Source: Pseudofrankia saprophytica
GTDB taxonomy: Bacteria; Actinomycetota; Actinomycetes; Frankiales; Frankiaceae
DNA: 64,000 bases
Direction: 5' to 3'
Assembly: GCF_000235425.2 (NCBI RefSeq)
Contig: NZ_KI912267.1
Span: 893,097-957,096, forward strand
Shown here: in pieces, positions 4,111 through 30,539 of the stretch
Layout of the letters: each line of letters opens with the position of its first letter
Numbering within the stretch: the stretch's first letter is position 1
Notes under the pieces: generated by a model
The model's database searches: none
What the model was told of the DNA's origin: nothing
The model's input: only the letters and a program-made list of their open reading frames with translations
Made by a program: the position numbers and the translations under genes

Positions 4111-5436
4111 CTAGAGCCGGGCCAGGGGCGCGGTGGAAGCCCGTCGGGGCTCCGGCACGCCATGGGCGGCCAGGTACTCCAGGAGCTCGGCCGCGCGCTG
4201 CTCCCGGCCGCAGGCCTCGATCTCAGCCCGCAGCCGGCGGGCGGTGGTGGTGAAGGCGGGATCCCCGAGCACCTGCCGGACGGCGGCGCGAACCCGCTCG
4301 GCACCAGGTGTCTGGGTGCGCAGGTCCACGCCGACTCCGGAGTAGGCGACCCGGGCGTTGACCTCGATCTTGTCCTCGGTCTTGCCGGCGCCGACGATCG
4401 GGACGCCGTGGGCGAGGGCGAGCTGGACCCCGCCGTACCCGCCGTTGGTCACGAACACGTCGACGTGCGGCATCAGGTTGTCGAAGGGGATGAACCGCTC
4501 GACCCTGGTGTTCGCCGGCAGCGGCCCCAGCACTGCCGGGTCGGGACCACCGGTGACGGCGACGACGAGCAGGTCCTCCTCCCCCGCGAGGGCGGAGATC
4601 GCCGGGCGGATCAGCTGGTCGAGGTCGGTGGCGACCGTGCCCTGGTTGACCAGCACCACCCGCCGGCCGCCCGCCAGGTCGTCCCACCAGGACGGTGGCC
4701 GCCAGGTGAGGTCTGGCCGCGGGCGCGGCGGGCCGACGAACCGCACCTGGCCCGGAATGTCCGGCACGGGATATTCGAAGCCGGGTGGACTGAACTGCAG
4801 GTACAGCCTGGTCGCGCGCGGGAAGTCGAACACGGAGTCCCGGGTCGGCCGCAGGCCGAAGATCTGCCGGGCCTTGTTGACCTCGGTGGTCATGGGGCGG
4901 AACAACAGGTTCCGCATGGCGGCGTCCATGGCCCGGTTACGGACCCGGCCGACGGGACCGCCCACGGGCCGCAGGCCGAATCCGAACGGCGCCAGATCCC
5001 GGCTCGGGAATGCCAGGACGCTGATTCCGAAGCCGGCGAGCGGTGGCCCGCCAAGGTCCTGGACGAGGGTGCCGCCGATGAAGGCGGTGTCCCCCACCAG
5101 GACGTCGGCCGGCTCCTCGTCCAGCAGCGCCATCAGGTCCCGCACCTGACCGGCCACCGGAGCCGCGAACACCTCGGTCAGGTCGAATCGCAGTTTGCGG
5201 ATGCCGGACAGTTCCCGGCGCCGCGGGTAGTGGCCGTCGAGGCCCCGCTCGCTGTAGTCGTGCTCCGGGTTGGTGATCGGGTGAAAGGTCGCGCCCGTGG
5301 CGGCGATCCGGTCCGCGGACGCGACACCGGTGTACCAGCGCACCGAGTGGCCGCGCGCGACCAGCTCACGGGCGATCGGCAGGGCGGGCGCGGTATGGCC
5401 GACGGCGGGGACGGTGGCGAACAGAAAACGAGCCAT
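4111..5436 (-). CDS. GT-B (MGT/GT1-like) glycosyltransferase
   Basis: This 441-aa cytosolic glycosyltransferase belongs to the macrolide/UDP-glucuronosyl (GT1) fold family and would move an activated sugar onto a small lipophilic acceptor. The N-terminus MARFLFATVPAVGHTAP carries the usual GH acceptor-side histidine (H14). In the donor half the usual THGGxGT signature is altered to TNGGYGGV, so the diphosphate-binding histidine is replaced by asparagine. It is the last gene of a leftward operon, 9 bp after the hydrolase gene, and is probably controlled by the divergent TetR gene at 6743. Donor and acceptor are unknown. Confidence 0.85.
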   Translation of the reverse strand: MARFLFATVPAVGHTAPALPIARELVARGHSVRWYTGVASADRIAATGATFHPITNPEHDYSERGLDGHYPRRRELSGIRKLRFDLTEVFAAPVAGQVRDLMALLDEEPADVLVGDTAFIGGTLVQDLGGPPLAGFGISVLAFPSRDLAPFGFGLRPVGGPVGRVRNRAMDAAMRNLLFRPMTTEVNKARQIFGLRPTRDSVFDFPRATRLYLQFSPPGFEYPVPDIPGQVRFVGPPRPRPDLTWRPPSWWDDLAGGRRVVLVNQGTVATDLDQLIRPAISALAGEEDLLVVAVTGGPDPAVLGPLPANTRVERFIPFDNLMPHVDVFVTNGGYGGVQLALAHGVPIVGAGKTEDKIEVNARVAYSGVGVDLRTQTPGAERVRAAVRQVLGDPAFTTTARRLRAEIEACGREQRAAELLEYLAAHGVPEPRRASTAPLARL

Positions 5437-5445
5437 CTGATGGCC

Positions 5446-6246
5446 TCACCTTTCGAGGAACAGCGGGGCAGGGGTGGCGAGAGCGGCGAGGGCGGCGGGG
5501 GCGGTGAGGGGGAGGAGGTGGTTGTGACCGGGGACGATGGTGGTGCGGGTGTCGGGGAGCATCGCGGCGAGGTACTCGACCAGGCGGTGGGTGAACAGTG
5601 GGCTCTCGCCGCCGGCGACGAGGTGGACCGGTTGTTCGATCCGGCGGGCCAGCTCCTCGTCGAAGTGCCACCCGACGAGCGAGGGCACCTCGCCGGCGAA
5701 GCAGTAGCCGCAGTCGCGTTCGGCGCGTTCGAGACCGGCCTGGCCGAGGGTGGACGCGATCACGGACCGGAAATCCGGTCCGCACAGCGCGGCCAGGAAG
5801 GTGTCGAAGGCGGTGCGCAGGTCACCCTGGGCGGCGGCGCCCATCGCCGCGCCGATGGCGGGGCCGATCGCGGCGGCGACCGGCACCCGATCCGCCGGCG
5901 GCAGGAGCGGGTCGATGAGCGGCGGCTCGACGAGGACGAGCTCGCCGACCAGCTCCGGGTGGTCGAGCGCCAGTTGCAGCGCGACCACGCAGCCGGAGGA
6001 GTGCGCGAGCACCCGGGCCCGCTCGATTCCGAGGCGGCGCAACAGGTCCGCGCACTCGGCGGCGTGGTCGGCCACCGACAGCGGCTCGGCGGGTGCGGGG
6101 TCCGAGTACCCGGTGCGGGTGACGCGGATCCGGCGCAGGCCGGCGGCGGCCGGCTCGCGCTCGAACGGGACGAACCAGTCGGCGAAGGCCGCCGCGTGGA
6201 TCAGGACGATCGGCTGGCCGTCGCCGCCGGAGTCGGTGTATCGCAT
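5446..6246 (-). CDS. alpha/beta-fold hydrolase
   Basis: This 266-aa alpha/beta hydrolase is the middle gene of the leftward operon 6684-4111. An oxyanion strand VLIHAAAFADWF is followed by the nucleophile elbow AHSSGC, with Ser83 as the likely nucleophile; the first glycine of GxSxG is replaced by Ala81. A late VPGHNHLL gives a plausible catalytic histidine. No signal peptide is seen. The family covers esterases, lactonases and haloalkane or epoxide hydrolases, so the reaction stays open. The gap to the next gene is 9 bp, indicating cotranscription. Confidence 0.85.
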   Translation of the reverse strand: MRYTDSGGDGQPIVLIHAAAFADWFVPFEREPAAAGLRRIRVTRTGYSDPAPAEPLSVADHAAECADLLRRLGIERARVLAHSSGCVVALQLALDHPELVGELVLVEPPLIDPLLPPADRVPVAAAIGPAIGAAMGAAAQGDLRTAFDTFLAALCGPDFRSVIASTLGQAGLERAERDCGYCFAGEVPSLVGWHFDEELARRIEQPVHLVAGGESPLFTHRLVEYLAAMLPDTRTTIVPGHNHLLPLTAPAALAALATPAPLFLER

Positions 6247-24999: not shown

Positions 25000-25635
25000 C
25001 TATCCGAACGGGACTGTCGAGCCGGGGGGCGCGAAAGCCGCGACAAGCGTGCGGACCAGGTAGGGGCCGGCGTCAGCGGCGGCCAACCGGTTGGCGTCCA
25101 CGTCCTCCGCGGCGGCGTGCATGAGCGTGAGCATCACGGTGACGAGCCACGAGCCGGGCAGGTCGTCGCGGAAGACGCCCTCCGCCTGACCGCGCTCCAC
25201 AAGTTGGCCGACACGCCCGAGGATGCCGTCGTGCACGTCGCGGATGCGCTCGTGCGCCAGCTCACGCGACGCGGCGCCCAGCACGCCACGGTGCTGCTCG
25301 ATGGTCCGCCACGAGGAGGTCACGAGCGTCGCCAACGCCCCGACCGGGTCACCGGAGAGATCGAGGCCGTCGAACACGGCGTTTGCGTGGCCGATCGTGC
25401 GGGCGAGAACGGCTTCGACCAGGTCGGCCCGGGTCTTGAAGTGGCCGTAGAGCGTGATGCGGCCGACGCCGGCCTCGGCCGCGATGTCCGCGATGCTCAC
25501 GTCCGGGTCGCGCCGCAGGCTACGCGTGGCCGCATCCAGGATCGCCTCCACGTTGCGGCGCGCATCGGCCCGCTGGGCCCGCTGCCCGGTCGAGCCGCTA
25601 CCGCTCACCGTTGCCCGACCCTCCCAGACGATCAT
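25000..25635 (-). CDS. TetR-family regulator
   Basis: This TetR-type regulator of up to 211 aa has the helix-turn-helix VSIADIAAEAGVGRITLYGH followed by FKTRADLVEAVL. The ATG at 25635 has no Shine-Dalgarno; a GTG at 25608 is preceded by GGGAGG and may be the real start. It is divergent from the P450 gene, with two inverted repeats between them, and lies 288 bp upstream of the co-oriented amidohydrolase/DUF35/thiolase-like operon. It is thus the obvious candidate to control both. Confidence 0.88.
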   Translation of the reverse strand: MIVWEGRATVSGSGSTGQRAQRADARRNVEAILDAATRSLRRDPDVSIADIAAEAGVGRITLYGHFKTRADLVEAVLARTIGHANAVFDGLDLSGDPVGALATLVTSSWRTIEQHRGVLGAASRELAHERIRDVHDGILGRVGQLVERGQAEGVFRDDLPGSWLVTVMLTLMHAAAEDVDANRLAAADAGPYLVRTLVAAFAPPGSTVPFG

Positions 25636-25639
25636 CGAT

Positions 25640-25707
25640 AACCCGTACTCATGGGTTCGAGTTCACGGTAGCGTGCCGAATAACTCGTACAAGCATGTTC
25701 AAGTTAT
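25640..25707. promoter_or_regulatory. divergent operator region, tetR/P450
   Basis: Two inverted repeats lie between the divergent starts. AACCC...GGGTT spans 25640-25657, directly in front of tetR. A 28-bp imperfect palindrome spans 25680-25707, with arms ATAACTCGTACA and TGTTCAAGTTAT (10 of 12 pairs), directly in front of the P450. Confidence 0.5.
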
Positions 25708-25715
25708 GAGGAACC

Positions 25716-27053
25716 ATGCCCCTCAGCCAGCTCTGCGAGAACTGCCACCAACTCATCACGGCCCGAGACGAGCACGACCTCGCGACCATCGCCGAGGCCC
25801 ACCTCGACACGCATGCCGACGCCGTGATCGCACGGCTCGCGCCCGAACTGATGGACGCGGCTGCGATCGTCGAGGCTCTGACGACCCAGGAGGGGCGCGC
25901 CAACCCGTTCCCGCTCTACGAGCGAGCGCTCGAACTCGGCCCGGTCTCGGTCATCGCCGACGGCTGGTATCTGGTTTCCAGCTACGCCGAGGTCAACCGC
26001 GTACTGCGCGATTCCCGTTTCGGGATCGCCGAGCCCGACGACGGCTCGACCGAGCACGACGCATTGGCGGCTTTGAACCGGTCGATCCTGCGAGCCAACC
26101 CGCCCGAGCACGGCCGGATGCGATCCCTGATCTCCTCGGTGTTCACCCCGCGCCGGGTCGCGGCCCTGCGGCCGGCGATCGAGAACGCGGTCGACCTGCT
26201 CCTGGACGGGCTGTCGGGCGCGGGCGCCGCGGGCGCACCCTTCGACTTCATGGAGGAGTTCGCGTTCCAGCTCCCGGTCTCGGTGATCTGCGAGCTGCTC
26301 GGCGTACCGTCCTCCGACCGCCACCGGTTCCGGGCGCTGGCCGCGGACCTGACCGTCGCCCTGGAGCTCACGGCCGACCCCGCCGTCCTGGACCCGGCCG
26401 GCGCGGCGGCACGGGAGTTGTCCCGCTACTTCCGGGAGCTGATCACCGAGAGCCGCGCCGACCCGGGCGACAACCTCGTCAGTGCCCTGGTCGCCGCCCG
26501 CGACGCCGACGATGGCCGGCTTTCCGACGTCGAACTGGTCGCCAACCTGGTCGTCCTCCTGGTCGCGGGATTCGAGACGACCACGAACCTGCTCGGCAAC
26601 GGCCTCGCGATCCTCTTCGAACGGCCCGGGTTGGCCGCGCGGCTGCGTTCCGGGGACGTCCCGACCGCGGGATTCGTCGAGGAGGTTCTGCGCTACGACT
26701 CACCGGTCCAGGCGACCATGCGGGTGGCACGCGCGGATGGCCTGACCGTGGACGGGACACCGGTCCCGAAGGGTGGCCAGCTCCTCCTGCTGATCGGATC
26801 GGCCAACCGGGATCCCGACCGCTATCACGACCCCGCCAGCTTCGACCCCATCCGCCCCGGCAGTGCGCCGCTCGCCTTCGGCGCCGGCGCGCACGTCTGC
26901 CTTGGCAACAGCCTGGCCCGGCTCGAGGCAGGAACGGCATTCCCCCGGCTACTCGACCGCTTTCCCGACCTGGCGCCCGCTGGAACGCCCACCCGCCGAG
27001 ACCGCCTCGTCCTGCGCGGCTACGAGATCCTCCCGGTGACCATCACCGCGTGA
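25716..27053 (+). CDS. cytochrome P450 with N-terminal Cys/His extension
   Basis: This 445-aa soluble P450 monooxygenase has the I-helix VAGFETTTN (about residue 283), the ExxR motif EEVLR (about 321) and the heme loop FGAGAHVCLG with the cysteine thiolate (about 388-397). The first 45 residues are not part of a normal P450: they carry C7, C10, H28 and H32 (LCENCHQ ... EAHLDTH), with zinc-finger-like spacing. No membrane anchor is seen. GAGGA precedes the ATG. Divergent from tetR at 25000; substrate unknown, and redox partners are not in the window. Confidence 0.92.
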   Translation: MPLSQLCENCHQLITARDEHDLATIAEAHLDTHADAVIARLAPELMDAAAIVEALTTQEGRANPFPLYERALELGPVSVIADGWYLVSSYAEVNRVLRDSRFGIAEPDDGSTEHDALAALNRSILRANPPEHGRMRSLISSVFTPRRVAALRPAIENAVDLLLDGLSGAGAAGAPFDFMEEFAFQLPVSVICELLGVPSSDRHRFRALAADLTVALELTADPAVLDPAGAAARELSRYFRELITESRADPGDNLVSALVAARDADDGRLSDVELVANLVVLLVAGFETTTNLLGNGLAILFERPGLAARLRSGDVPTAGFVEEVLRYDSPVQATMRVARADGLTVDGTPVPKGGQLLLLIGSANRDPDRYHDPASFDPIRPGSAPLAFGAGAHVCLGNSLARLEAGTAFPRLLDRFPDLAPAGTPTRRDRLVLRGYEILPVTITA

Positions 27054-28208: not shown

Positions 28209-30539
28209 ATGGGCACGGTGATCCTCACTGGGGGTGGCGTGGTCGAGGTGCCGGCAGGAGTGGCGCCGCTCGACGACTTCGACCCTCGCCGGATCGGGCC
28301 CTACGTACTGCTTGGACGGCTGGGCCACGGCGGCATGGGCAGCGTCTACCTGGGGCACCGCGACGACGCCGACCCGAACGGCGGCGGCCCGAACGGCGGC
28401 GGCCCGCTCGTCGCGATCAAGGTGATCCGCGGGGACCTGGCGCAGGTTCCCGCGTTCCGTGCCCGCTTCGAGCGGGAGGCCCGGGCAGCGCAGAAGGTCC
28501 ACCATGCGTTCACGGCCGCGGTGATGGACGTGGATACGGCCGGTAGCCGGCCCTACCTCGTCACCTCCTACATCCAGGGGCCGACGCTGGCAGCCCAGGT
28601 TCGTGACGACGGGCCGCTTCCCGCGACGAACCTGGAGTGGCTGGCGGGGGCGATCGCGGGGGCGCTGCGGGCGATCCACGCGGTCGGGGTGATCCACCGG
28701 GACCTCAAGCCGGCGAACATCCTGTTGTCGCCCTTCGGCGCCCGAGTGATCGATTTTGGTATCGCCCGCGCGCTTGACGCCACGACGATGGCCACCGAGG
28801 GCACGATCGGCACTCCGGCGTTCATGGCACCGGAGCAGGTCCTCGCCCAGGAGGTCACGGCGGCGGCCGACGTCCACGCCTGGGGCGCCGTCCTGGTCTT
28901 CGCCGCGACCGGCCACGCCCCGTTCGTCGGCGACACGATTCACACGATCATGCGCCAGGTCGTGGAGGAGACGCCCGACCTCGCCGGTCTTCCCGAGTCG
29001 CTGCGTCCGCTCGCCGCTCGCGCCCTGCTGAAGGACCCCGCGGACCGGCCCACCGCCGCGCAGCTCGTCGAGGCGATCCACGACCTCCACGCCGCTACGA
29101 CGCAGACAGCGCCTCCGGAGCAGGGCTCTGGCCCCGGCACCACCGGGCAGGGCCCGAGTCCCGGCGCGACCATCGAGGCCGATGCGCCGCAGGCCGGGCC
29201 GACCGGCGGCGGAGCCGGCCGGGTTGCCAGCACGACCGAGCCGGTCGTCGTTGTCGGCGGAGCCGACCAGGCCGTGGACAACCGGTTCCCGCCGCCGGCT
29301 CCTCCACCCTCCAGCCGGCCAACGCACCGCCGCCGCGGGCTCATCACGACGCTCGCCACGGCGCTCGCCGTCGTGATCGCCGTCGTGATCACCTCGGTCG
29401 TCCTGACCAGCGGCGGCGGAACCGGCGGCGGCGAGGACGACCCGACGCCCGCGGCCCATTCGCGGGCGACCTCGATCCCGACGGCCACAGGCACCGGTGC
29501 CAGCCCTTCGGGCACGGCCTTGCCCTCGCCCTCACCTGAGCCCGCGATCACGACAGCCACGCCCCTCGGCCAGCCCCTGACCGGACCCACCGACTCGGTG
29601 ACCTCGGCGGTGTTCTCCCCGGACAGCCGCACCCTGGCGGTCGGCAGCGACGACGCCACCGTGCGGCTGTGGGATGTCTCGAACCCGACCCGCCGCAGCC
29701 CTCTCGGCCAGCCCCTGACCGGGCCGCCCGGCACCGTGGTGTCGTCCGTGGCGTTCTCCCCGGACGGCCACACACTCGCCGCCGGCGGTGGCGACCGGTT
29801 CCACTCGCTGAGCGGTGCGGGCACCGTACGGCTGTGGGACGTGTCGAACCCGGCGAGCCCCAGACCGCTCGGCCAGCTCCCGACGGGCAACGCCGGCTCG
29901 GTGTGGTCGGTGGCCTTCTCGCCGGACGGTCACACCCTCGCCGCCGGCAGCGACGACTCCACCGTGCGGCTGTGGGACGTGTCGAACCCGGCGAGCCCCA
30001 GGCCGCTCCAGCAGCTCCCGACCAACATCAAGGCCGACGTGGAGTCGGTCGTCTTCTCCCCGGATGGCCGCACGCTCGCCGCCGCGATCGCCATCACGGC
30101 CCAGCTATGGGATGTCTCCAATCCGGCGAACCCCACCCATCTCGGCGAGGTGGCCGCGAGCGGCGCCGGCGGGGCGCGAGCGGCGGCGTTCTCCCCGGAC
30201 AGCCACACGCTCGCCGTCGGCTGGGGCGACGGCGCCGTCCGGTCGTGGAACGTCTCCGACCCGGCGCACCCCACCCAGCTCGGCCAGCCGCTGACCATCC
30301 CAGGCGCCAGCGTCACGTCGGTGGCGTTCTCTCCCGACGGCCACGCTCTCGCCGCCGCCACGGTCGGAAGCGGCGGGCACCTGTGGGACATCTCGAACCC
30401 GGCGAGCCCCAGGCCCATCGAGTTGTCGCTGGCCGGCTCTCCCATCACCAGGCTTTCCACCGTCGTCTTCTCGCCTGACCGCCGCATCCTGGCGGCCGCC
30501 AGCTACGACAACGTAGTGCAGCTGTGGAAACTCAGCTGA
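28209..30539 (+). CDS. Ser/Thr protein kinase with C-terminal WD40 repeats
   Basis: This protein of about 776 aa has a Hanks-type kinase domain at residues 30-295: glycine loop GRLGHGGMGSVYLG, lysine in VAIKVI, catalytic HRDLKPANI (about 164), VIDFGIA and the APE-equivalent MAPEQ. Then comes a proline-rich linker, one membrane segment GLITTLATALAVVIAVVITS (about 377-397), and six to seven WD40 repeats (VAFSPDGHTLAAGS, VRLWDVSNPA) outside. It is likely a membrane receptor kinase that senses through the propeller. No substrate gene is obvious. Several in-frame starts are possible within the first 60 bp. Confidence 0.9.
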   Translation: MGTVILTGGGVVEVPAGVAPLDDFDPRRIGPYVLLGRLGHGGMGSVYLGHRDDADPNGGGPNGGGPLVAIKVIRGDLAQVPAFRARFEREARAAQKVHHAFTAAVMDVDTAGSRPYLVTSYIQGPTLAAQVRDDGPLPATNLEWLAGAIAGALRAIHAVGVIHRDLKPANILLSPFGARVIDFGIARALDATTMATEGTIGTPAFMAPEQVLAQEVTAAADVHAWGAVLVFAATGHAPFVGDTIHTIMRQVVEETPDLAGLPESLRPLAARALLKDPADRPTAAQLVEAIHDLHAATTQTAPPEQGSGPGTTGQGPSPGATIEADAPQAGPTGGGAGRVASTTEPVVVVGGADQAVDNRFPPPAPPPSSRPTHRRRGLITTLATALAVVIAVVITSVVLTSGGGTGGGEDDPTPAAHSRATSIPTATGTGASPSGTALPSPSPEPAITTATPLGQPLTGPTDSVTSAVFSPDSRTLAVGSDDATVRLWDVSNPTRRSPLGQPLTGPPGTVVSSVAFSPDGHTLAAGGGDRFHSLSGAGTVRLWDVSNPASPRPLGQLPTGNAGSVWSVAFSPDGHTLAAGSDDSTVRLWDVSNPASPRPLQQLPTNIKADVESVVFSPDGRTLAAAIAITAQLWDVSNPANPTHLGEVAASGAGGARAAAFSPDSHTLAVGWGDGAVRSWNVSDPAHPTQLGQPLTIPGASVTSVAFSPDGHALAAATVGSGGHLWDISNPASPRPIELSLAGSPITRLSTVVFSPDRRILAAASYDNVVQLWKLS

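Follow-up and report, generated by a model that had tools for sequence, protein, structure and literature searches.

Natural fusions in which a cytochrome P450 shares its polypeptide chain with another domain include P450 BM3, CYP116B and the flavodoxin-P450s, all of which carry redox domains. The literature matches for zinc-finger P450 fusions look unrelated in the portions of those papers available, and no literature on Pseudofrankia with cytochrome P450 was found. DUF1059 (PF06348) is a family of proteins of ~50 residues in which two Cys, followed by two His, are conserved. None of the papers naming DUF1059 appears, from the parts of them at hand, to concern its function; the accession PF06348 yielded no literature mention, and the term DUF1059 is absent from the papers retrieved on small zinc-finger proteins. 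Here we describe a P450 of Pseudofrankia saprophytica with an N-terminal extension that resembles DUF1059.

The window, that is, the whole 64,000-nucleotide stretch of DNA analysed, derives from a genome of 9.98 Mb. The open reading frame with a Cys- and His-bearing N-terminus that a first-pass annotation had reported is present in the ORF list and its translation (Table 1). The protein matches the Pfam p450 model with an E value of 3.8e-30 and a score of 105.5 bits, compared with the cut-off of 22.8. A motif search located the I-helix signature AGxxT as AGFETT at residue 284, ExxR as EVLR at residue 323, and the heme-loop signature FxxGxxxCxG as FGAGAHVCLG at residue 388. The P450 core is complete, with heme loop, ExxR and I-helix motif intact. 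An NCBIfam scan of the protein yielded ten matches, all ten below cut-off.

Table 1 Features of the P450 locus in window coordinates, and of a gene pair in a genome of the same family (last line).
Feature	Position	Strand	Basis
Cytochrome P450 gene with N-terminal extension, 445 aa	25716..27053	+	ORF and translation, Pfam p450, P450 signatures
N-terminal extension, residues 1-45	25716..25850	+	Kept by G033, partly lost in P. asymbiotica, absent in the two nearest homologues outside the genus
DUF1059-like Cys2His2 domain	25734..25814	+	Profile and shuffle tests, ligand spacing, dN/dS of residues 4-33
Candidate ligands C7, C10, H29, H33	25734, 25743, 25800, 25812	+	Translation
Linker, residues 34-45, apparently unconstrained	25815..25850	+	dN/dS 1.5 versus G033
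P450 domain, from M46	25851..27050	+	Alignment with Streptomyces and Embleya homologues
Heme-binding loop FGAGAHVCLG, C395 as proximal ligand	26877..26906	+	Motif search
Shine-Dalgarno-like GAGGA before ATG 25716	25708..25712	+	Sequence; AGGA in start-codon scan
Divergent TetR-family regulator	25000..25635	-	Pfam TetR_N, E 7.1e-10
Palindrome, 8 of 10 positions symmetric	25682..25705	.	Same site in three orthologues
Another P450 and a DUF1059-like gene in G001, same orientation	L093:3704-5080 and 5429-5572	-	

The N-terminus of the window protein is MPLSQLCENCHQLITARDEHDLATIAEAHLDTHADAVIARLAPEL, followed by M46. Two near orthologues were available for comparison, from P. asymbiotica (G028) and from another Pseudofrankia genome (G033). 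The G033 protein begins MTTSQLCEDCHQVITAPRADDLAALVAAHLADTHTNAG and keeps all four candidate ligands, and that of P. asymbiotica begins MTTVERATAGAHLDTHASA, both Cys residues being gone via an in-frame gap. The window and G033 extensions have SQLCE(D/N)CHQ...DLA...AHL.DTH in common. The first-pass annotation had described two Cys and two His residues, which are present, but with a spacing of x17 and with His28 and His32; the pattern is C7-x2-C10-x18-H29-x3-H33. In G033 the spacing is C-x18-H-x4-H. The description as zinc-finger-like is supported: the four candidate ligands correspond to the Cys-Cys-His-His set of DUF1059, and from the second Cys onward G033 shows the spacing most frequent in that family. 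A classical C2H2 zinc finger has the pattern C-x2-4-C-x12-H-x3-5-H with a hydrophobic core, and this assignment was rejected on the Cys-to-His gap of 18 residues versus 12.

Searched against 396 genomes of the phylum, a profile made from the extensions of the window protein and G033 gave matches in 77, the genome of origin included and the others weak; several of these matches are stand-alone small proteins resembling DUF1059. The reverse search covered 12 genomes and took as its profile an alignment of 13 small DUF1059-like proteins, 6 rows of which had first been found via the extension; it recovered the G033 extension with an E value of 2.2e-7 and that of the window with 9.6e-4. Both rank directly after the stand-alone DUF1059 proteins, and the first match thereafter to anything other than a small DUF1059 protein has an E value of 0.089.

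A further profile was built from 40 DUF1059 proteins at places found by the Pfam PF06348 model. Fifty of 55 loci were extracted (L075, L082, L085, L086 and L092 were left out) and ten of these were removed, namely five that duplicated others exactly or nearly so, two that belong to a different protein type, two that carry an in-frame TGA and one that had been misread. Not all of the 40 proteins retained reach the Pfam cut-off; seven were extended to cover the complete small protein, and L116 and L117 are also matched by the extension profile. Over 40 residues the G033 extension scored 25.7 bits and that of the window 11.6. Among shuffles of equal length, the G033 score was reached by 0 of 3000, and again by 0 of 3000 with Cys and His fixed; the window score was reached by 0 of 3000 and, with Cys and His fixed, by 3 of 3000. 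Longer N-termini scored 24.6 bits (G033), 9.4 (window) and 0.3 (P. asymbiotica); against shuffles only 40 residues long, and thus less well matched, G033 was equalled by none of 3000 in either test and the window by 10 of 3000, or 8 of 3000 with Cys and His fixed. By these tests the similarity to DUF1059 beyond the Cys and His residues exceeds chance. Between the second Cys and the first His, 39 of the 40 proteins have x18, and the two His form H-x4-H in all 40.

The Pfam DUF1059 model gave 14.9 bits and an E value of 0.031 for the G033 extension, below its cut-off of 21.1, and no match for the window extension. Because this score lies under the cut-off, the extension is termed DUF1059-like and not a member of the family. 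Scans of the extension against Pfam, NCBIfam and PHROGs gave weak matches only, none over a cut-off where one exists; apart from DUF1059, the weak hits in Pfam were to magnetochrome (MCR) and Znf_XAF1_N. The latter was rejected, its best match having an E value of 0.0069 and 16.2 bits versus a cut-off of 27. Taken as a whole, the extension resembles the widespread small-protein family DUF1059, and the domain looks borrowed from there. A 47-residue DUF1059-like gene was also observed in G001, 348 bp upstream of another P450 on the minus strand of L093.

Some DUF1059 proteins are probably selenoproteins. The 17 listed matches L182-L198, from 12 other genomes of the phylum, each contain one in-frame TGA, in every case at the first conserved Cys, as in MAYEFR[TGA]RDAGADC; the position was read directly in 14 of the 17 and from the DNA letters in three. 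A SelB match over cut-off occurs in 11 of the 12 genomes, the exception being G427, which is 78% complete, and in two of four comparison genomes. Neither DUF1059 nor PF06348 occurs in the main text of a review from 2026 on the prokaryotic selenoproteome (PMC13188914).

Among 35 genomes of the family, this P450 was found in three of the eight Pseudofrankia genomes searched. The orthologue of P. asymbiotica is 88% identical over residues 25-445 and that of G033 is 78% identical; alignment of the core yielded 89% and 79%, respectively. The next homologues found come from Streptomyces sp. NBC_00271, with 62% identity in the alignment and 60% by tblastn, and from Embleya sp. NBC_00888, with 56%. 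The Cys-Cys-His-His pattern was found in the in-frame sequence upstream of none of 35 further P450 homologues (10 and 26 genes checked, less L024, which starts at a contig end and has only 17 upstream residues). A plasmid collection searched with the G033 N-terminus returned three records, which align only from query residue 36 or 45 onward. A profile containing the extension matched in 116 of 393 genomes of the class, the window and G033 by construction. All 18 places examined from that search, picked mostly for long open frames though not taking every such frame, are stand-alone small proteins that end 9-22 residues after the match. Within what was searched, the extension is restricted to this orthologue group. 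Since the core is closer to P. asymbiotica than to G033, the domain was probably present in the common ancestor of the three Pseudofrankia and later cut in P. asymbiotica.

Comparison of the window with G033 gave a dN/dS of 0.205 for the finger (residues 4-33), 0.36 for the core and 1.5 for the linker (residues 34-45, 10 codons). Only 22 differences, 10.5 synonymous and 11.5 non-synonymous, underlie the value for the finger; with these small counts, the binomial probability that neutral change would yield the synonymous excess is 0.004-0.013. Over the whole extension, dN/dS was 0.47 for the window versus G033 (42 codons), 1.24 for the window versus P. asymbiotica (27 codons) and 0.47 for G033 versus P. 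asymbiotica (25 codons). Judged by these substitutions, the finger is constrained between the window species and G033 and the linker is apparently unconstrained.

The divergent TetR-family regulator adjoins the P450 in all three loci, and the two orthologous regulators are 87.7% and 81.4% identical to that of the window. When eight window genes, the P450 included, were compared with the two orthologous loci, the regulator was the only one of the seven neighbours with a close match in both. The palindrome AACTCGTACA-N4-TGTTCAAGTT, kept in all three orthologues, lies between the two genes just upstream of the ribosome-binding site and is a candidate TetR operator. The adjoining thiolase-like, DUF35-like and amidohydrolase genes are closely matched in P. 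asymbiotica; in the G033 region the thiolase-like and DUF35-like genes have only 33-34% matches and the amidohydrolase none. The P. asymbiotica amidohydrolase (L034:3042-4093) gives two separate alignments, one over residues 5-240 and one over 311-432, which suggests an internal deletion of ~70 residues. Elsewhere in the window, a 776-residue open reading frame at 28209-30539 appears by eye to encode a serine/threonine kinase with C-terminal WD40-like repeats.

The extension is almost certainly translated, and the strongest case is provided by G033. Its in-frame ATG, GTG and TTG codons within the first 160 are GTG 1, which follows GGAGGT, GTG 13, ATG 133 and GTG 140; codons 14 to 132 contain none, and the equivalent of M46 is CTG. 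ATG 133 and GTG 140 fall deep within the P450, so translation of this P450 must include most of the extension. In the window, AGGA stands suitably spaced before ATG 1, while no Shine-Dalgarno match precedes ATG 46. A mis-called start, with the protein beginning at M46, is therefore very improbable even though the annotated start of the Streptomyces protein (WP_328760387.1) and the first in-frame start codon of the unannotated Embleya locus are equivalent to M46, and ATG occupies this position in both the window and P. asymbiotica; the purifying selection on the finger relative to G033 also argues against it. Homologues starting after residue 45, which the first-pass annotation had regarded as a sign that the extension is not translated, thus exist in Streptomyces and Embleya, but the G033 orthologue retains the domain and lacks a start codon at that point. 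The same annotation had pointed out that CxxCH would fit a c-type heme site. C7-E-N-C10-H11 is indeed present, the motif is found in both the window and G033, and the magnetochrome matches (E values of 0.011-0.19 for window pieces and 0.038 for G033, 11.8-15.8 bits versus a cut-off of 30.4) point in the same direction. However, c-type heme is attached outside the cytoplasm, and the first 45 residues include no hydrophobic export segment, the highest 15-residue mean hydropathy being 0.56 in the window and 1.05 in G033; moreover, the extension matches DUF1059 over its length. We consider a heme attached here and feeding electrons to the P450 extremely unlikely.

Decay of the domain is a more serious rival, given its loss in P. 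asymbiotica and the drift of the window copy. By this account the extension is DUF1059-like by descent, the window copy is already inactive and deletion has begun in P. asymbiotica, the closer relative, which is without the Cys half. The shortened His spacing of the window copy, its score of less than half that of G033 and the whole-extension dN/dS above one between the window and P. asymbiotica agree with decay, but the window copy retains each of the four candidate ligands and the low dN/dS of the finger versus G033 speaks against it; we regard this account as possible, though less likely than not. Another reading starts from the replacement of the first Cys by probable selenocysteine in several genomes. 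This residue would then be chemically active in DUF1059, the domain would be a redox-active thiol or selenol metal site, and the fusion would make the P450 a thiol-redox- or zinc-gated oxidase. We think this improbable; such a P450 does not appear to be described in the available portions of the literature on zinc-finger P450 fusions and on P450 fusions.

The reading we prefer, and hold to be on balance somewhat probable, is a tethered Zn(Cys2His2) accessory domain that was gained by fusion, is not needed for catalysis and may be in decay. We infer that in the ancestor of the three Pseudofrankia a P450 gene gained a DUF1059-like Cys2His2 domain before its old start, now M46. The number and spacing of the conserved ligands point to a single Zn(II), which would most likely be bound by C7, C10, H29 and H33 in a small structural module, between a Cys-x2-Cys turn and a helix that carries the His residues, the module sitting on a flexible linker of 12 residues. 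Since the linker is seemingly unconstrained and the core is that of a complete P450, an accessory role is the simplest reading: the domain would provide a surface for docking or stability outside the catalytic core, and the P450, putatively under control of the adjoining TetR regulator, would work as an ordinary P450. That P. asymbiotica has lost the Cys half speaks against the extension being essential. AlphaFold prediction of residues 1-60 from the single sequence yielded an all-helical model with a pLDDT of 78 and no zinc finger, and prediction of the full protein from a two-sequence alignment gave a pLDDT of 38.5; neither model is usable. A PDB profile search with the 13 small DUF1059-like proteins identified no credible relative, the best match having an E value of 0.22.

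The fusion ties a well-assayed enzyme to a widespread, uncharacterised family of tiny proteins, so that P450 activity could serve as a readout of what the domain does. In nature the domain occurs in three forms, intact in G033, slightly altered in the window and half deleted in P. asymbiotica, which constitute a ready-made comparison.

Compared with stand-alone DUF1059 proteins, the extension likewise possesses two Cys, x18 and two His. Both have a similar hydrophobic and acidic pattern between the ligands and place the first Cys ~6-7 residues from the Met. The extension has Cys-x2-Cys whereas DUF1059 mostly has Cys-x6-Cys, and the window has H-x3-H in place of the H-x4-H of DUF1059, which G033 matches. 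In addition, the extension is fused to a P450, and where DUF1059 proteins continue beyond the His residues it has an apparently unconstrained linker instead. Bacterial P450s of solved structure, the nearest being 8yhn and PikC, exhibit the same complete catalytic core and heme loop, and none of the best 60 of 256 (E below 1e-30) aligns before residue 33 of the window protein. As in P450 BM3, CYP116B and the flavodoxin-P450s, the window P450 has an extra domain on the same chain; unlike them, it bears a putative zinc domain and no known electron carrier.
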